Assembly: GCA_022575985.1 (NCBI GenBank)
Contig: JAKSXM010000156.1
Span: 558,001 to 622,000 of the forward strand
Length of the DNA stretch: 64,000 bases
Source: Anagrus nilaparvatae
Taxonomy: Eukaryota; Arthropoda; Insecta; Hymenoptera; Mymaridae
Reading direction: 5' to 3'
Shown: piece by piece, positions 15,711 to 57,075 of the stretch
How the letters are laid out: the number at the start of each line of letters is the position of its first letter
Position numbering within the stretch: position 1 is the first letter of the stretch
Made by a program: the position numbers and the translations under genes
Notes under the pieces: model-generated
The model's input: only the letters and a program-made list of their open reading frames with translations
What the model was told of the DNA's origin: nothing
Databases searched by the model: none

Positions 15711-18299
15711 TCTTAATACTATATATATCTGAAAATTTATTTGTCTGTTTGTTTGCTTGTTTGTTTGTTTGTTTGTTTGTACCCTAATGACTCACGAACC
15801 ACCGAACCGATTGGCATGAAACCGACGTCAAAATGAAGAAAAAAAAAATGCGGGTGACATAGGCCCTATATTTTTTGATTAGCTATCGTAGGTTTTGAAA
15901 TATTTAATTTTTAGTATTTTTGAACTTGTTAACATTTTTTAAAAATTTTAACAAAAATTGAAATATCTCGAGACTATCGAATGGTATTTTTAATCATTTA
16001 TTTGTGGGTCTGTGTATATTATAATGTAATTTATATTCTATATTTAAATGTAATTTATGCGTACTTATAGTTAAATTTTTATTAAAAACGTACGTTTCTT
16101 TAAAATTAAAAAAAAAAAAAAATTGATGGAGTTAAAATAATGTTTGGTTTTTAAAATAATTATAATAAAAATAAGACAAATTCAAGAAATTAATTATACA
16201 ATATAATTTTTTTCGTTAAAAAAATAAATTAGTTAATATTAGTTTTAATTACATTTTCTACGATATTTAAAATTTTTTTTAAAATTAAAATATAGGAAAA
16301 ACGCTGCAAAATTATTGGCACTGCAGTTCTTTAAGCAATGCAAATATTCATATGTGCATTTCTACGAGAAAGTACTTTTTATGAGCACCAAAAATGAAGA
16401 AAAAAAAATTTACGAGGCCGCGACTGCCACCATGATTTTCTGGTAGTTTGAACCTTATAGAATGCAAAAAAAAGCGTGAAAACGAAATCGGCGATGGTTG
16501 CCAAAAAGATTTTGCCACTTTTATGTCAAAAACCGTGTTTTTCGTATCTGAGATACCCTAAATTTTCAAAATAACTTTTCAGGTAAATAAAATTTTTTAA
16601 AACTAGGTAAAAAATCTGATTGCCAGGAAAAAATCACTCCAGAAGAAAAAAAAACTTTTCTTTTTCCGAAGAAATTTAGCCAAGTTATCGTCAATTTAAG
16701 ATTTCACTCAAATTTGTCTTAAAACAGGTTGAAGTTCTATATTGAAAAATGCCTGTTTCTGAACTTTAAACATGCATTACTCGCTTGATTTTCATCGTAA
16801 AACAATAATTTTTTTTTTTAAATATACGTATTTTTCCCTGGCAATTCATTTCTTTATGAAAGAAATCATTTTTATTTACCAAATTTCCATTTTCTAGGTC
16901 AAAAGCCTTTGAAAACTATAAGTAGCAAAATTTACTTAACATAGTTTTTGACCTAAAAATTCAAATTCGTTCAATAAAAATGATTTCTGTCTTGAAAAAA
17001 TGAATACTCAGGGAAAAATTAATTGATTTTTAAAAAAACGTCGAAAATGAAGCGAATAATGTATATTATTGCTGAAATTTGTCTTAAAAATGATTGAAAT
17101 TCTATTGAAATATGACTGTTTCTGAACATATAATATGCATTACTAGCTTGATTTTCATCGTAAATAATAAATTTTTTTTTTAAATCAATTAATTTTTCCC
17201 TGAGTATTCATTTCTTCAAGAAAGAAATCATTTTTATTGACCAAATTTCAATTTTTAGGTCAAAAACTGTGTTAAGTAAATTTTGCTACTTACAGTTTTC
17301 AAAGGCTTTTGACCTAAAAATTGAAATTCGGTACATAAAAATGATTTTTTTTCATAAAGAAATGAATTGCCAGGGAAAAATACATCGATTTAAAAAAAAA
17401 ATTATTATTTTACGATGAAAATCAAGCGAGTAATGCATGTTTAAAGTTCAGAAACAGGCATTTTTCAATATAGAACTTCAACCTGTTTTAAGACAAATTT
17501 GAGTGAAATCTTAAATTGACGATAACTTGGCTAAATTTTATCGGAAAAAGAAAAGTTTTTTTTTCTTCTGGAGTGATTTTTTCCTGGCAATTAGATTTTT
17601 TACCTAGTTTTTAAAAATTTTATTTACCTGAAAAGTTATTTTGAAAATTTAGGGTAGCTCAGATACGAAAAACACGGTTTTTGACATAAAAGTGGCAAAA
17701 TATTTTTGGCATCCATCGCCGATTTCGTGTTCACGCTTTTTTTTGCATTCTGTAGGGTTCAAACTACCAGAAAATCATGGTGGCAGTCGCGGCCTCGTAA
17801 ATTTTTTTTTCTTCATTTTTGATGCTCATAAAAAGTACTTTCTCGTAGAAATGCACATATGAGTTAAAATTTTTTACTATATCTTAATACTATATATATT
17901 CATATGAGTTAAAATTTTTTACTATATATTATATATATTCAACTCAAATTTTAGGGTATAGTTTGGTGATAAAAAAGTCCCTCAGCCAAAGTTTTAGTCC
18001 TCTAGCACCTCATGATCCCGAAATATGTCTGTTTAAAGGTCCAAAAATAGCCTGATTTGGCCCATTTTCAAAATTACGCCATTCCTTTGAATTTACTACA
18101 AATTTTATCTTATTGGTCACATTTGAACTGGTAAAAGGTCTACATTAAGAAAAAAATTTTAGCTTATTTCAAGGCGTTAATTTTTTTTGGCATTGATATA
18201 TCTTTTGGACAATAACAACATAATAATAATAAAAAATCAATAACAACAACACCGGGAATAGATCAGGGGGGACGGAGCCCCCCCTCTCACCTATGCTAG
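15711..18299 (+). mobile_element. non-autonomous Helitron
   Basis: The 5' end is TCTTAATACTATATATATCT at 15711, preceded by A and followed by a (GTTT)n tract and ACCGAACCGATTGGCATGAA. The 3' end has a GGGGGG/CCCCCC hairpin (18266-18284), then 11 nt, then CTAG (18296-18299) and T. Insertion between A and T without duplication, TC start, subterminal hairpin and CTAG end are the defining Helitron features. No Rep/helicase coding sequence is present, so it is non-autonomous. About 1.5 kb of its length is a separate palindrome (16348-17862). A second TCTTAATACTATATATAT-like 5' end lies inside at 17882. Confidence 0.8.
16348..17862. mobile_element. 1.5 kb near-perfect palindrome inside the Helitron
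   Basis: The outer arm begins TCATATGTGCATTTCTACGA and the far end is its reverse complement. Symmetry continues to a centre near 17105, giving arms of about 750 bp with few mismatches. The arms carry GC-richer islands such as GAGGCCGCGACTGCC, and each arm contains internal duplications (for example the TGTTTCTGAAC...GCATTACT segment). No reading frame of note and no clear target duplication. It is probably a foldback transposon inserted into, or captured by, the Helitron. Confidence 0.8.
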
Positions 18300-18826
18300 T
18301 ATATATATATATTTTCGCCTTTTTCCAAAATGTTTAATTTTATATATACTGTAAAGTTAAGAGGCCAGTAATATTTAGTATACCTTGAGACGGTATGATG
18401 AGCACCCTGCCTATTTATAAAATTATTAACTATAATTTTTTATTATTAAAATTATACCCTCTCATGGCTGACCCAACCTAACATTACTTAAAAAAATAAC
18501 AGCTGTGTTTCCGTAATCAAAGATTACGAATACACAGATGTTAAAGGCGACGCATGCGCCTCTCAAAAACATATGACTATAGTTATATCAAATTAGCATA
18601 GAAAGCATATAGTATTTTTTTTATTTAGTTTTTTTAGTTTATTCAAACAAAGTATGAATAATTTTCTTATTGTTTATTAAAGTTAAACTAGTAAGTAAAA
18701 TCATTAATTGAAAATTAAAACAAAACTAGTCTTCGTTTAATTAAAATTAAACTCCAAATAATAATTTGTTATCTCGTTTTAATACCGTCCTTTATTATCT
18801 TACGCGAGTAGATACAAGCGCAAGGG

Positions 18827-18834
18827 TATAAATA
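18827..18834 (+). promoter_or_regulatory. TATA box of the LTR promoter
   Basis: TATAAATA in the context AAGGGTATAAATACGGAG. Transcription would start about 30 nt downstream, near 18857, immediately before the stem-loop array. This is expected for a U3/R boundary. Confidence 0.65.
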
Positions 18835-18871
18835 CGGAGTCGTAAAGCGAGAAATATTCATTCATTCTCTG

Positions 18872-19338
18872 GTTGTGGTGCACAACAGACACAGTAAAGG
18901 TAACTTGAGTTGCTCTCGTTCTCTTTACACTTGGAGTTGCTCCAGGTTAAATATATAGGTTGGTTGCCACCTATAAACATATAACGGGTGTACATTGGCG
19001 AGATGCTCCCATTGTACTTACTATAGTCCTGTTAAGGGAATCTGGCGATGCCACTAGCGGTTGCTCGACCTAATCAGTAGAAGCAGGTTGCCTCTTCTAC
19101 AGGTAAAATCTCTCGGTTACCTTGACCATCATTAATGGGAGTTGCTCTCTTAATACGATTGGGTTAATTAAGGATTATACTGCGATTAGAGTTTAGTGTC
19201 CCTAGATGGTCACGCGGGTCTGGTTACCAACCGTGTGACGTCAGAAGCCTTTTGCTCTACTATAGTTTTCCGACGGCGAGTTGCTCCCGTCTTGTATATT
19301 CCCGTATACGTTTATTTCACTTGGAGGTGCTCCGAGTG
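18872..19338 (+). other. array of eleven TTG-type triloop hairpins in the LTR leader
   Basis: Stem-loops occur at 18872-18886, 18902-18920, 18929-18947, 18954-18975, 18990-19017, 19043-19053, 19077-19100, 19131-19154, 19209-19239, 19272-19291 and 19318-19338. Loops are TTG (six), GTG (two), ATG, TTA and GAT. The closing stem is GAG/CTC in six copies and AGG/CCT or TGG/CCA in three others. Five hairpins (loops at 18965, 19004, 19089, 19225, 19282) have one unpaired C or T exactly three pairs below the loop. Outer stems differ in sequence but stay paired, and wobble pairs are G-T on this strand. The array sits in the predicted 5' leader. A protein-binding, packaging or translation role is only an inference. 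Confidence 0.75.
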
Positions 19339-21076
19339 CGAAGATTAATTAGAGCAATTTCTTTTATATTTAAATTTCTCTATTTTATTTTTTATATTAT
19401 TCGCGTCTTTGACTAGTACGCCAACCGCGGATAATAAATTCATTATTTTATATTTTTTTGCATTGTATAATTTTGCACCGTATTAAAAAACTCAATGTCA
19501 ATTAATAAAATTAATTAACTTCTTTTTGATTTGATTGAAATATTGTAATGAAATTACATAAATACTTAATTAATTGATTAACGTTGTTTTATATAAGTTT
19601 TGCTACATACACAACAAAATTTTGTAAATATTAATTGTAAGACAAAGTATATCTTTTCTAAAAATAAATTGATTTTATTTTTGTTACATTAAATCAAGTC
19701 TGGTCATTGTGTTAAACCAATACCCATCCTAATGCATCCGGTAATTTCTTATTACGGAAAAGAATCGAAGGTACGTCAGGCCCCCTTTCGTACCGTCTCA
19801 ACCTAAAAATTTTTAATGGACGGAAACGGATCTGTCTCAGTTGAATTAATTAAAAACCATTTTCTAATGGTCAGTTTTAAGCAAATTACGCTATATTGCT
19901 CAAATTGAAATAAAAATTTAAAAAAAAATAAAAATATAAAAAAACATATTCTTGAAAAATATTGTTAATTGAGACAATTTTGGAACCTGTTAGATTTGTG
20001 GTTAGAGTTTTTGGAGACTATGCTTAGATAAAATTGGATGCTTTTATATATATATACATATATATATATATGCACCTATTTCAAAGTTATGATTACTTTA
20101 ATATAATTAATTTTAGTAACTGTTTAAAATTATTAAGTACAAAAGTTTTATTTTACTATATTAAATGCAAAATAATTGTTCCCTGACCAAGTTTGAATGT
20201 AATTAATATAAATAAAAATCAGGGACTTTGAAATATCACAGGTTACATAAATACATACGTACCTACAAACAAACTTCTATAAATACATACATACATTCAT
20301 ACACATAATACTTTTTTTATGAGGAACCAAATGAAAAATATAAGATAGAATGCGTGAATATAATTTAAAATATTGTTTGATTAGTGTGTTAGGCGATGTC
20401 TAGGTGGCGCTATTTTCTCAAACGAGAAATGAATTTTTAATGTTATATAAGATGCATTAAGTAATCATGAAATTAATCAATTTACTATTTTATTTATGAA
20501 TATTATCTTTAAATATTAATTTGTCTATAAATTTATTTCTGATAATAATTTAGAATTTTTATAGATGCCTATCTTTTTGAACACGTTTAAGAAATATTTT
20601 ATTTAATAATTATATTCTCATATAAATTACAATTAAAGTTTTGGATGCATACTTTAAATGGATTATCGCCTCCCTTTGAAAATGGTTAATTTTATATATA
20701 CTGTTAAGTTAAGAGGCCAGTAATATTTAGTATACCTAAAGTTTTACGAGCTTTGGATACATACTTAATACGGTTTTTCGCTTTCTTTCCAAAATATTTA
20801 ATATATACTGTAAAGTGAAGAGGCTAAAATATATATAAATATATATGAGACTTTGTTTCCGTGTACTTAATTCATAAGAATATATATATCATTAAGATAT
20901 TAAGAAATAAAAATTGGCCACAAAGTGGTCCATGTTATAAATTGATTTCAAGTATATTTTCTCGCAAGCAAAATGAATCAGGGAGAGTATATAAGAAATC
21001 AAAGGCATCTCAAGCTAATATTATTAATATATAAGAAATAATTCTCGAGCGCGTAAATATAAATGTTTTTATATTT

Positions 21077-24603: not shown

Positions 24604-26302
24604 TAGTCCTGTCGCCCACCATGCTATTTAATGCCATAAAAGTTCCATGGAAAAAAATGGTTGGTATTTATATTTTTGACCCGCTAAACACGCATCCGAG
24701 GTCCGTTTTGCAAAATTCGTGGTCAATTTTTTGTTATTAACAATTTATTGCAAAATTTGATAACAATCTAAATGTTAAATATCCTGTAGCTAAAACAATT
24801 CAAAATTTTGATAAGCCCCTGATTTTATTATACATATTTTGACTCACTTAATCCAAATTTATAATTTATAAGCTCGTATGATTAATTGTTTAAACAATAT
24901 TTAATTGTTAATAAATTGTTTAAACAATATTTTTTTGAAAATTACGTGTGACACCTTTTTATGTGTATTTTTTAACCCTCTGATCACGATTTTCAAGTTA
25001 TTTTTTTCATAAACCTTACTTATAGTAATTGTTTAAACAATTTTAATTTGTTTATAAGCCAAAATTAGTATGTTGCTATTTAAAATTTGACAAAAACATG
25101 AATTCCGTAGCTTACAGCTTTCGTGATTTCGAAAAGCAATCACCAATTTTTATTTGCTGTATCCGAATTTTTAATTTGCAATGTCGTAGGACTAATTGTT
25201 TAAACAATATTAAATTGTTTATAATTTATTTAAACAATATTTTTTTGAAAATTACGTGTGACACCTTTTTATATGTATTTTTTGACCCTCTGATCACGAT
25301 TTTCAAGTTATTTTTTTCATAAACCTTACTTATAGTAATTGTTTAAACAATTTTAATTTGTTTATAACCCAAAATAAGTATGTTGTTAGGTAAAATTCCA
25401 ATTCTTGAAATACATTGGTATTTAAGTTCATCAAAATGCTTTTTTTACCTTAGTAATGTTTATACAAAAAAATGTAATAATACATTAAATAAATTATCTT
25501 CCATATTACTAACCCGAGAGTTAATTTTATTTATTATATGATTTTAAAGTTTAAATTGTTTAAGCAAATAATGGGGTTGGTTTTTTGAAAAAAAGATCCT
25601 GAAAATCGTGATCGGAGGGTCAACAAATACATAAACAAAAGTGATTTTCAAAAAAAATATGTTTAAACAATTTATTAATAATTAAATATTGTTTAAACAA
25701 TTAAACCTATGACCTTGGGAATTTAAAATTCAGATTCAGCAAGTTAAAATAAAAAAAATTATCGATCACTTTTTGAAATCACGAAATCTGTAAGCCACGG
25801 AATTCATGTTTTTGTCAAATTTTAAATAGCAACATACTAATTTTGGCTTATAAACAAATTAAAATTGTTTAAACAATTACTATAAGTAAGGTTTATGAAA
25901 AAAATAACTTGAAAATCGTGATCAGAGGGTTAAAAAATATATATAAAAAGGTGTCACACGTAATTTTCAAAAAAATATTGTTTAAACAATTTATTAACAA
26001 TTAAATATTGTTTAAAAAATTAATCATACGAGCTTATAAATTAGAAATTTGGATTAAGTGAGTCAAAATATGTATAATAAAAGCAGGGGCTTATCAAAAT
26101 TTTGAATTGTTTTAGCTACAAGATATTTAACATTTAGATTGTTGTCAAATTTTGCAATAAATTGTTAATGACAAAAAATTGACTACGAATTTTGCAAAAC
26201 GGACCTCGGATTCGTGTTTAGCGGGTCAAAAAACATAAATACCAACCATTTTTTTCCATGGAACTTTTATGGCATTAAATAGCATGGTGGGCGACAGGAC
26301 TA
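24604..26302. mobile_element. 1.7 kb foldback element with internal GTTTAAAC palindromes
   Basis: The left arm begins TAGTCCTGTCGCCCACCATG and the right end is its reverse complement; symmetry runs to a centre near 25453. TTA flanks both sides (24601-24603 and 26303-26305), a possible 3-bp target duplication. Each arm holds two direct copies of a roughly 200-bp block (24877-25075 and 25190-25385 on the left) with the perfect palindrome ATTGTTTAAACAAT, which recurs about seven or eight times across the element. Mismatches between arms are sparse. No transposase is present. A three-base duplication would fit PIF/Harbinger-like elements, but this is not secure. Confidence 0.8.
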
Positions 26303-29589: not shown

Positions 29590-30400
29590 ATAAATATAGA
29601 AGGTAAAAAACCTTATAAACAATCCATTCAAATTCTAATTGTAATTTATATGAGGATATAACTATTAACTACAATATTTCTTAAACATACTTAAAACGAT
29701 AGGTATCTGAAAAAATTCTGTAAGTAATCATAACTTTAAAATAGATGCACATATATTTAAAAGCACCCAATTTTATCTAACCGTAGCCCCCAAAAATGAC
29801 ACGTAATGTCTTGTTCTCTGACCACAAACCTAATAAGTACCAAAATTGTCTCAATTTACAATATTCTTCAAGAATTTTTTTTTTTTTTTTGCGAATTAGT
29901 TTATTTTGAGCAATACAGCGTCAAATACTCAAAACTGACCATTAGAAAATCGTTCTTAGTGAATTCTAGTGAGATGGATCCATTTCTATCCATTCAAAAA
30001 TTTTAGGTACAGTTAACATTACTGACCACTTGACTTTACAGTATATATTAAACATTTTGGAAAGAAGGCGAAAACCCGTACAAAATATGCGTACAAAACT
30101 CTAATTGTAATTTATATACTTACACATACTCAAAAGAAAGGTATCTGAAAAAATTCTAAATTTTTATCAGAAATAAGTTTATAGACAAATTAATATTTAA
30201 AGATGATATTCATAAATAAAATAGAAAATTGATTATAATTTCATGGTTACTTAATGCATCTTATATAACATTAAAAAGTCATTTCTCTTTTGAGAAAATA
30301 GCGCCACCTAGATATCGCCTAACACACCGATCAAACAATACTTTTATATTATATTCATACATTCCCTGATATTTTTCATTTTTTTTTCTTCATAGATCAA
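29590..30400 (-). repeat. dispersed repeat family A, minus-strand copy
   Basis: Reverse complement of the blocks at 18312-18385 and 19801-20760, including CGCCACCTAGATATCGCCTA (30301-30320) and ACTTTACAGTATATATTAAA (30034-30053). The site that received the LTR in the other copy reads AGGTACAGTTA here (30005 onward) without an insertion, which makes it the empty-site reference. The frame at 29806-30006 is incidental. Confidence 0.65.
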
Positions 30401-54962: not shown

Positions 54963-56199
54963 TTAATCTGATGCATAATTTTAATTCTTGAAAAACATTG
55001 ACATTCTACCTTTATAAGAAAAGTTTATAGACATTGCAAACTAGAAGCATTTAAAATTATAATTACAGCCCAAGGGACTTGCAGAGTTCTGATTATCAAT
55101 AAATATTCTCAAACATTCTTTAATATTTAAATAGTTCAGTCGATTCTTCTATTATCTAGTCAATGACTTTATTACATGCTTTATTATCTGAATTTACAAC
55201 TTTAATGATCACGCCAATATAACTTGCCAATAGCATACATAAATTATGTTGATCATATACGATAAAAACCAATAACAAGGATATGTTATAAACTTATAAA
55301 AGTAATTTATGAGTGCTATATTTTAAACTGAGATCATATATACATTAAATTTATTCATATATAAAATTTATTTTAAACTATTGAAAACTACTTAGATGAA
55401 AGTTTATAATATTTAAATGTCTGTTTACTTGTTATCATCTGTTTATTGATCTTCTTTGGTATTGATATTACTTGTTTGTAATAATATTGTCAACTCTGGT
55501 TCTGCAGTTAAGAAAAAAGCTTTTATATGTTTTTACATTCTGGACTTATTCTTACGTACAATCAAGCTTATTAAATTTTTTCTGAAGATTCATCAGGGGT
55601 AAATTTACAATTAGTAAATGAAAATTCCAGATAGTAAATTTACTACTAAGATAGTAATTACATAGATGAGAATTTTTACAGTATATTTAGCGATTGTTCA
55701 GTCTCTTTTCTTCAAAATCAAGTTGAAAAAATACAGTTACAATGGCAAATCTTTTATGCATAATTAAAGAAATGATATCAACCTGTAAAGCTCGTTTAAT
55801 ACATGATAATAAAGACGATTCTCTCATATACAATGTTTTTTATTTTCTAAATCTATTTTTTGTGAAAATTTGTAAATCGTGTAAATATTTGTACGAAAAA
55901 AGAACGTAAAAGGAAATTAGTGAGAGCAATGTGAGAGAATCCTGGAGAGAATGGAAAGGATTTATTGATACAGTGCAAAATCTGTCCTGTACTGAAGCAA
56001 AAAAAAAAACAGATTAAAAAAGACTTGGAAGAATAGAAGGAAAATATTTAGTCCATATAATTAGAAACTGGACTGAGCTGATAAAAGAACTGATTACACA
56101 AAAATCAAAGAAATATGCCTATATTATGTGAAAAGGATAAAAAAATACAAGGAAAGTAAAGAAAAACAATCTAAAAATTTTTCTGTATAGTTAAATGTT
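54963..56199. other. AT-rich DNA between retrotransposon fragments
   Basis: No recognisable block. The last 300 bp (55900-56199), with REW and K/E-rich readings, may be decayed upstream sequence of the following reverse transcriptase relic, but I cannot align it. Confidence 0.4.
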
Positions 56200-57075
56200 T
56201 TACATCGACACCGGAGTTAGCATATGCAGAAGATATGTTCTTTTTATCAAAATCCTCTGTTTACCATAAAAAATTATTGCTTGCCTTAGAATCATACTTG
56301 GATATTAACGAACTAAAAATGAACTTGAAAAAAACAAAAATTATGATTTTTAAAAAAGGGGGACGCGGACACAAAACAAAACTGGATTTTAAATTTAAAA
56401 ATGTATCTATAGACCATGCTATAGACTTTGTAAATGAATACACGTACCCAGGAGTTATTTTTGCTCAATCTGGTGTTTATAATAAAGCAGCTAGAAATTT
56501 TATATCAAAAGGATACAAAGCGATATATCCCACTATTAATATTTTAAATAGACTACAAATTACAAACAGCAATACCTGTAAAAAACTATTTAATGCACTA
56601 GTCTCATCTATGGTACTTTTGCAGCTCCAGTTTGGAGCCGTAGAAACCTACCAGAACTGGAAAAAGTCCAAAAAACATATTTTAGAAAACTCCTCTCTTT
56701 ACCCTGCAATACACCTGGTTATGCAATAAGACTTGAACTGAATATAAAAAGCATAGAACTAATATGCATTAAATTAATTCTCAACTTTACCCAAAGAATT
56801 TTAGAGATGGAGGATGACAGATATCTTAAAATTTGCTTTAACAGGCTGAAATAACTAGCGGAATATAATGACGCATCTCCAAAATTTAACTGGTGCGTAC
56901 AAATAAATGGATACTTTTTCAAAAAAATAGATGAAAGCCACTTTTGGTCAAATTTAACTTTGGTACTTGAAAAAAATAATTAAATCACTAAAATGAGTAG
57001 CTTTCTAGCAAAAAATGACCAAGAGTGTTGCAAAAATTCTAGTTCATTTGCACTCTATCCTAATTCTAATTAAGT
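56200..57075 (+). pseudogene. non-LTR reverse transcriptase relic, C-terminal half
   Basis: The reading opens with TPELAYAEDMFFLS (about 56208-56250), the catalytic YADD box with the first Asp changed to Glu. The open frame at 56235-56729 carries ALESYLDINELKMNLKKTKI and IFKKGG, then VNEYTYPGVIFAQSGVYNKA, both typical of the block after YADD. Near 56615 the frame shifts: the sequence APVWSRRNLPELEKV and then LLSLPCNTPGYAIRLEL is found in another plus frame until a stop at about 56852, with a possible C-terminal end near 57073. Upstream palm motifs are missing. The frameshift and the altered catalytic residue show it is dead. Confidence 0.8.

Follow-up and report, generated by a model that had tools for sequence, protein, structure and literature searches.

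A tandem array of triloop hairpins in the leader of Ty3/gypsy-type LTR retrotransposons of Anagrus nilaparvatae

An array of eleven hairpins was found in the LTR of a retrotransposon in the window, the whole 64-kb stretch of Anagrus nilaparvatae DNA that was analysed. The array is real, and comparison of its genomic copies supports selection on it as a folded sense-strand RNA in lineages in which the elements were active. As the leading explanation, with a probability of about one half, the array would bind the Gag protein of an autonomous relative, family C, in a multivalent manner, and thereby serve RNA packaging.

The hairpin array and its element

All eleven stem-loops of the original prediction, which was made from the window alone, are present on the plus strand at the positions given there (18872-19338; Table 1). 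The triloop design that they were said to share holds for ten of them, while HP6, with its GAT loop closed by C-G, falls outside it. A single unpaired 5' pyrimidine exactly three pairs below the loop was confirmed for HP4, HP5, HP7, HP9 and HP10. The statement that imperfect pairs are G-T only turned out to be wrong, as the window copy has mismatches in HP2 (U.C, U.U) and HP5 (U.U).

Chance hairpins are ruled out by shuffle folding, with base-pair span free as well as limited, and by the excess of triloops. Folding of 18857-19345 gave z -5.07 on the plus and -4.71 on the minus strand, and 0 of 100 dinucleotide shuffles equalled the array on either strand. With a base-pair span of <=40, z was -4.26 (+) and -4.76 (-), and 0 of 200 shuffles were as good on either strand. 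A mechanical triloop scan (score >=18), which overlooks HP2, HP5, HP6 and HP9, detected seven triloop hairpins on the plus and six on the minus strand. Shuffled sequences did not give as many, the seven on the plus strand comparing with 0.28 on average and never more than 2 in 200 shuffles. The sequence GAGTTGCTC occurs four times in the 64 kb, each time inside the array on the plus strand (mean of 100 shuffles, 0.11). At gathering score, the window has no match in Rfam; five sub-threshold matches in 18400-19800 (E 0.45-8) all lie far under the gathering scores.

Table 1. Coordinates in the window of the hairpins, longer stems and features of the element
Feature	Position	Strand	Description or basis
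HP1	18868..18889	+	loop GTG, bulged G
HP2	18899..18923	+	loop TTG, U.U three pairs below loop
HP3	18929..18947	+	loop TTG, bulge absent
HP4	18954..18975	+	loop TTG, pyrimidine bulge on 5' strand three pairs below loop
HP5	18990..19017	+	loop ATG, 5' pyrimidine bulge; double change at two pairs
HP6	19043..19053	+	loop GAT (most copies GCT); outside common motif
HP7	19077..19100	+	loop TTG, 5' pyrimidine bulge; upper pair no. 3 broken in 22/39 rows
HP8	19131..19154	+	loop TTG; three pairs below loop: window G.U, 34/39 copies U.U
HP9	19209..19239	+	loop TTA without change on tree; bulged C in 39/39
HP10	19272..19291	+	loop TTG, 5' pyrimidine bulge
HP11	19318..19338	+	loop GTG, bulge absent; double change at two pairs
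Stem L1	5' arm 19057..19065, 3' arm 19195..19202	+	RNAalifold and covariation
Stem L2	5' arm CTAATC 19070..19075, 3' arm GATTAG 19184..19189	+	encloses HP7 and HP8
Stem L3, beneath HP8	5' arm 19111..19130, 3' arm 19157..19173	+	RNAalifold and covariation
Solo LTR, family A, 1415 bp, ends TGAGACGGTA...TACCGTCTCA	18386..19800	+	empty site and related copies
Target-site duplication ACCT, left	18382..18385		empty-site comparison
Target-site duplication ACCT, right	19801..19804		empty-site comparison
TATA box TATAAATA	18827..18834	+	little changed across families A-D
U3/R boundary, predicted transcription start	18847..18858	+	TATA spacing and mosaic LTR switch points
First AATAAA past array	19433..19438	+	LTR position 1048; if used, R includes the entire array; further ones 19504 and 19663 (LTR 1119, 1278)

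Judged by its LTR ends, target-site duplication (TSD), PBS, PPT and pol domain order, the element that carries the array is a Ty3/gypsy-type LTR retrotransposon. Its identity as an LTR retrotransposon, already proposed in the original prediction, follows from the TSD, an empty site, the TG..CA ends, and copies with LTR pairs, PBS, PPT and gag-pol. The empty site is a diverged copy of the flanking repeat (window 29600-30200, reverse strand), and defines the insertion as 18386-19800. The window copy is a solo LTR and so has no PBS or PPT. TG..CA LTRs with a short TSD were found, although some loci have no matching TSD; B and C copies carry the tRNA-like PBS TGGTGCCGAAACCCGGAT and the PPT AAAAAGTGGGGGGGCGA, and the order RVP, RVT_1, RT_RNaseH, Integrase_H2C2, rve was found in the one C copy examined. 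The LTR pairs with outer TSD, PBS and PPT of related copies exclude a DNA transposon or MITE, and the element boundaries and genomic copies exclude a host lncRNA gene.

Outside the array, the LTR has further inverted repeats. The U3 contains an imperfect 16-bp palindrome (CTGTGTTTCCGTAATC/GATTACGAATACACAG) followed by GGCGACGCATGCGCC (window 18502-18561), and the end of U5 has more inverted repeats, GGTACG/CGTACC (19740-19800). Folding z was -2.8 (+) and -3.3 (-) for the 300 nt from 18400, and -4.33 on the plus strand for the 300 nt from 19650. Elsewhere in the window, two large inverted repeats (24673-26232 and 16348-17862; arms of 482 and 474 nt, 96-97% complementary) are, by their layout, foldback-like elements, and a 184-aa frame (56175-56729) resembles by eye a fragment of a non-LTR reverse transcriptase.

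A search of the 488.7-Mb genome (393 contigs) with the LTR gave at least 79 matches, a lower bound because only 40 of the 145 candidates were scored. Among the matches listed were seven other full-length LTR copies, with 89-98% identity to the window LTR, and none was seen as a pair of complete family A LTRs. A second search, with a diverged leader as query, retrieved further copies, with leaders 7.2 kb apart. Altogether, four related leader families retain the array: A, that of the window; B, without gag-pol; C, with gag-PR-RT-RH-IN; and D. These other families, as well as the longer-range stems, had been overlooked in the original prediction. In the tree built from unpaired columns, support is 100/99 for A, B and C and 92/68 for D, of whose two rows L173 is damaged around HP10.

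Families B and C have LTRs of 1185 and 1433 bp. A B copy (L151) has two LTRs, the TSD AGGT, PBS, PPT and an internal region of 1734 bp, in which the longest frame is 87 aa. The B internal region resembles that of C only over its first 62 and last 64 bases, the PBS and PPT ends. In family B, much of U3 and some sequence downstream of the array are missing, and the array itself is full length. A C copy (L201-L203, TSD ATAT) has a PBS identical to that of B. Its frames for gag and pol stay in register from one piece to the next, the pieces being unjoined, and pol encodes protease, RT, RNase H and integrase. After integrase comes a separate 257-aa frame (L203:202-975), which is lysine-rich and has no Pfam match at E<=0.01. 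The nearest named protein relatives are arthropod (Trichogramma, Clastoptera and Callosobruchus), with plants and others lower among the 101 matches listed. A protein search with Gag gave one homologue (46% identity over 77%).

In viral contigs, the protease-RT half of pol had 16 pattern matches, none a relative; a two-unit motif pattern matched at least 120 stretches, and no examined locus had more than two motif units per 500 nt; and the 17-mer of HP9 occurred in three contigs, none with a surrounding array by eye. Within the genome, the leader pairs L179/L180, L191/L192, L193/L194 and L189/L190 lie about 7.2 kb apart, are identical within each pair, and are best read as recent family C insertions. 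One further LTR copy (L141 and L138, G000:C337:6257237-6267887) is split in two: it stops after position 869 and starts again at 864, about 9.8 kb further on, with the inverted termini TACGACAGGGCC at the inner ends. By these marks, the insert is a large terminal-inverted-repeat element with a 6-bp duplication.

Pairing changes and the repeated motif

The leaders amounted to 73 stretches in loci, some of which overlap one place; 48 were distinct and 39 were aligned. The nine omitted were each at least 99% identical to a family reference (B: L146, L147, L149, L150, L152, L158, L159, L163; C: L193). A coverage filter removed partial copies, and four rows damaged in paired columns (L129, L133, L172, L173) were retained. 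The model of HP8 was fitted by eye to several families, the remaining hairpins being drawn on the window copy.

Over the 101 hairpin pairs of the 39 leaders, 93.9% of cells are paired, compared with 37.8-51.4% for slid partners. Cells changed on both sides number 113 (at most 39 when slid), and the covariation score is 0.128 (at most 0.055 when slid). Against column shuffles, three measures lie above all 500 shuffles, whereas the pairs with a double change (11, mean 11.2) and the further pair types (47, mean 52.3) are not above chance. A home-made R-scape-like test, which has low power here, found two of 126 pairs at E<=0.05, with 0-1 in slid controls; the one control among six that shows any has 1 of 120 pairs.

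The direction of change along the tree is more telling. Branch events were counted by parsimony on a single tree, in which terminal branches hold mostly post-insertion change, and internal branches hold change inherited through active lineages. Internal branches show 41 changes from Watson-Crick pairs to G.U and five to A.C (p 2e-8), compared with 34 and 39 on terminal branches (p 0.64). Double changes that keep the pair were 15 on internal and 0 on terminal branches (slid partners, 1-3 in total). For the hairpins alone, the G.U:A.C counts are 22:5 internal and 27:36 terminal. A restricted check, which omits HP8, any pair that the window copy does not form and the branches leading to that copy, still gave 16:5 internal (p 0.013) versus 24:35 terminal (Fisher p 0.010). 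Constraint at the DNA level would equalise change to G.U and to A.C, and the G.U excess on internal but not terminal branches thus points to selection on the array as sense-strand RNA while the elements were active. Pairing was retained through compensatory and G.U change on the sense strand, as in a conserved RNA structure.

The claim of sense-strand selection in the original prediction is therefore supported by G.U-biased and compensatory change on internal branches, absent on terminal ones. Uncompensated stem changes, which would have spoken against it, do exist in the upper pair of HP7 and parts of HP1, HP2, HP5 and HP8, yet are far fewer in active lineages than after insertion. The pairs most often broken are an outer pair of HP2 (26 of 39 rows) and the third upper pair of HP7 (22), followed by one pair each in HP1 (18), HP8 (16) and HP5 (15). 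For repeat families full of dead copies, the contrast between internal and terminal branches offers a clean route to demonstrate RNA-level selection.

Around HP7 and HP8, RNAalifold proposed the three longer stems L1, L2 and L3, with 26 pairs. In these, 95.9% of cells are paired (at most 51.7% when slid), ten pairs and 101 cells show a double change (at most six and 39), and the covariation score is 0.423 (at most 0.153); this test is favoured, because the stems were picked by a score that includes covariation. Against column shuffles, they are not clearly above chance (double-change pairs, 32 of 500 as high; further types, 163 of 500).

Thermodynamic folding alone, at a span of <=160, fails to predict the conserved model. 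At this span, hairpins with a closing-pair probability >0.6 number nine of 11 in L121 (A), six in L143 (B), five in L189 (C) and four in L140 (D), and the mean probability of the long-range pairs is 0.04 in A, 0.07 in B, 0.69 in C and 0.31 in D. The minimum-energy fold pairs hairpins with one another, and its unconstrained version omits some of them; pairs within the conserved model are 56 of 173 (L121), 76 of 169 (L143) and 83 of 173 (L189). For minimum-energy pairs outside the model, internal G.U:A.C changes are 26:17, 20:13 and 20:18, with 10-13 double changes, so that further real helices may be among them.

Ten of the hairpins share a common motif, a G-[N-U-R]-C triloop on a 3-bp stem, and in seven of these an unpaired pyrimidine or a U.U lies beneath the stem. 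Majority votes per family (11 hairpins in four families, 44 in total, with L140 as the sole voter for D) gave G as the closing 5' base 40 times, U at loop position 2 41 times and a purine at position 3 40 times. Along internal branches, the 11 loops changed 16 times at position 1, never at position 2 and three times at position 3. The bulge of HP4, HP5, HP7, HP9 and HP10 is a pyrimidine in each row that bears a letter there, and changes only between C and T. Among the 39 copies, T and C are found 30 and 9 times in HP4, 13 and 26 times in HP5, 24 and 15 times in HP7, and 10 and 28 times in HP10, where one copy has a gap; HP9 has C in all. The U.U three pairs below the loop is present in 37 of 39 copies of HP2 and in most copies of HP8, the window copy being one of five with G.U. 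HP1, HP3 and HP11 have neither an unpaired pyrimidine nor a U.U at this place. A repeated motif with fixed and free positions suggests a single recognising protein, and such a covarying motif makes a testable recognition code.

The R region, packaging and rival explanations

The AATAAA signals that follow the TATA box in A, B and C are located past the array. R therefore probably includes the array, which would place it at both RNA ends.

Mosaic LTRs were surveyed in 39 distinct complete LTRs, a different set from the 39 leaders. Of these, 32 were uniform, three were clear mosaics (L132, L139, L188) and four were ambiguous (L140, L172, L174, L178); L133, L134 and L200 yielded no complete LTR. 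L132 passes from a B/C-like promoter to A at LTR 466-468 (18851-18853), with a U3 end equally near A and B. L139 passes from A to B at LTR 462-473 (18847-18858) and by eye returns to A after the array. With the predicted start at about LTR 472, these two mosaics change family at the U3/R border, which is what strand transfer between two RNAs would produce. L188 joins a B-type U3 to a C-type R-U5 and a B internal region, with its switch at 419-441, slightly upstream of the TATA box; over the part examined, its other LTR is C-type too. A similar switch near LTR 462-479 was found in L135, which exceeds the length limit of the survey. The mosaics suggest that RNAs of different families meet in one reverse-transcription complex, i.e. 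that they are co-packaged, and DNA recombination could be an alternative origin.

We propose that the array is a cis-acting RNA element of the leader, probably within R, and that its repeated motif would let a single protein bind multivalently, the best candidate being Gag of the autonomous family C. Capsid binding or packaging was also the first function suggested in the original prediction. Binding by Gag would select the genomic RNA for packaging, and the non-autonomous family B would be carried along because it has retained these sites. R being present at both ends of the RNA, there would be two arrays per genome. The gag piece of C has weak matches to Arc capsids (Pfam E 1.3e-4, under the curated cut-off; PDB E 2.4e-5), and its Gag has a basic tail. 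A CCHC pattern is absent from the 454 residues of this piece and the first 100 of the next, in which the protease match starts at about residue 15. The repetition of the motif, the retention of the array in B and the weakly Arc-like Gag together favour Gag binding and packaging. A more tentative extension is a multivalent packaging code, in which about ten copies of an operator-like hairpin at each RNA end may bind Gag cooperatively, this Gag having no zinc knuckle. A stripped-down parasite family would have kept these copies, and would be packed together with its helper and recombine with it.

A packaging signal should be retained in elements that can be mobilised in trans, as the array is in B, whose mobilisation in trans we infer. 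Such retention does not single out packaging, since between-family identity in the array (0.70-0.74, all columns) does not exceed that at the LTR ends or in the promoter. Besides, a homologous R is needed for strand transfer regardless of the role of the array. A strict motif scan, which is insensitive and sees four of the ten hairpins per C LTR, gave no match in L202 or in the internal sequences of L151, L201 and L203. The retention in family B and the natural mosaics are built-in experiments on what the helper machinery requires. Even in yeast, the choice of RNA by Ty3/gypsy elements was still imprecisely defined in 2016; in the words of an excerpt from a 2016 review, Ty1/Ty3 packaging sequences 'have not been precisely defined' (PMC4974528).

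A protein of the host might bind the hairpins instead, for nuclear export, localisation or RNA stability. This is unlikely, though the least so among the alternatives, as multivalent like sites suit a host protein as well as Gag, and non-autonomous elements would need it too. Egl-BicD, for instance, binds Drosophila localisation signals including that of the I factor, but these signals, as characterised in an excerpt of the source, are bulged on the 3' strand and comprise two helices, each 6 bp or longer (PMC13186709), in contrast to the 5' bulges and 3-bp upper stems found here. Outside the array, moreover, a strict scan of the 64-kb window gave four matches on the plus and two on the minus strand, the four listed having A-T or G-T outer pairs only. 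Unlikely as well is a leader that governs gag-pol translation, where structure and upstream AUGs would block scanning and an IRES or ribosome shunt would start Gag. The C leader measures about 1.15 kb between the predicted start and gag, and its 11 upstream AUGs each begin a frame of 3-27 codons. An IRES occurs in the leader of Drosophila gypsy. Another is reported, in a partial text, from the antisense mRNA of a mussel LTR-retrotransposon (PMC10974842). The array is nonetheless still present in B copies, which have no gag-pol; this argues against a role solely in its translation, and a near-identical repeated recognition motif would be unexpected in an IRES.

The hairpins might also serve dimerisation or strand transfer, if self-complementary copies paired in trans and so aligned two genomes. 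The cores are self-complementary, the minimum-energy fold joins hairpins to each other, the mosaic LTRs suggest strand transfer between RNAs, and Ty3 dimers are described, in an excerpt of one account, as held through short 5'-end palindromes (PMC11381356). UUG loops, however, have no self-complementarity, and a loop with a fixed U and purine and a free position 1, together with the fixed pyrimidine bulge, fits recognition by a protein better, which makes this role quite improbable. The Su(Hw) insulator of gypsy is an array of sites for a DNA-binding protein, and repeated palindromic cores adjoin the promoter here too. Yet stem letters change while pairing is kept, and the strand-specific excess of G.U over A.C on internal branches indicates RNA, which leaves such a DNA-level array next to no probability.

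Comparison with known systems

In the open-access PMC literature searched, we found no report of a tandem hairpin array in an LTR element. The element resembles Ty3/gypsy (Metaviridae) in its LTR ends, 4-bp TSD, PBS, PPT, order of protease, RT, RNase H and integrase, and cis-acting 5' leader. It differs from Ty1 and Ty3, in whose descriptions, as excerpted from two accounts, no tandem array of like hairpins appears (PMC11381356, PMC4974528). A structured 5' leader used in packaging, as we propose here, is shared with retroviral packaging signals. We know of no such signal in which ten copies of one triloop motif are a feature.

The resemblance to iron-responsive elements that had been pointed out holds for the geometry, a 5' bulged pyrimidine below a short loop, and does not extend to membership. 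The upper helix has three bp instead of five, and the loop is a true triloop instead of the six-base pseudo-triloop (C-AGU-G-N); according to an excerpt of the same source, cutting the element down to a simple triloop abolishes its function (PMC8466369). With both traits missing and no Rfam match at gathering score, an iron-responsive element is rejected. Egl-BicD localisation signals, including that of the I factor, are likewise bulged stem-loops within transposon RNA. They too are rejected, as in the excerpt available their two helices of 6 bp or more are separated by 3'-strand bulges (PMC13186709), and those of the array lie on the 5' strand.

A parallel with phage coat-protein hairpins was also drawn in the original prediction. 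The operator of MS2-type phages is a short hairpin with one unpaired base below the loop, and is bound by the coat protein. The hairpins described here are alike in this build, and differ in having a triloop, a pyrimidine bulge, ten tandem copies and a putative protein partner. Among non-autonomous LTR elements, Cassandra carries a 5S RNA within its LTR. Family B resembles elements of the LARD/TRIM kind in having LTRs, PBS and PPT without gag-pol, which is also absent from Cassandra, as stated in an excerpt on that element (PMC7215508). Unlike elements of this kind, family B retains a covarying hairpin array.
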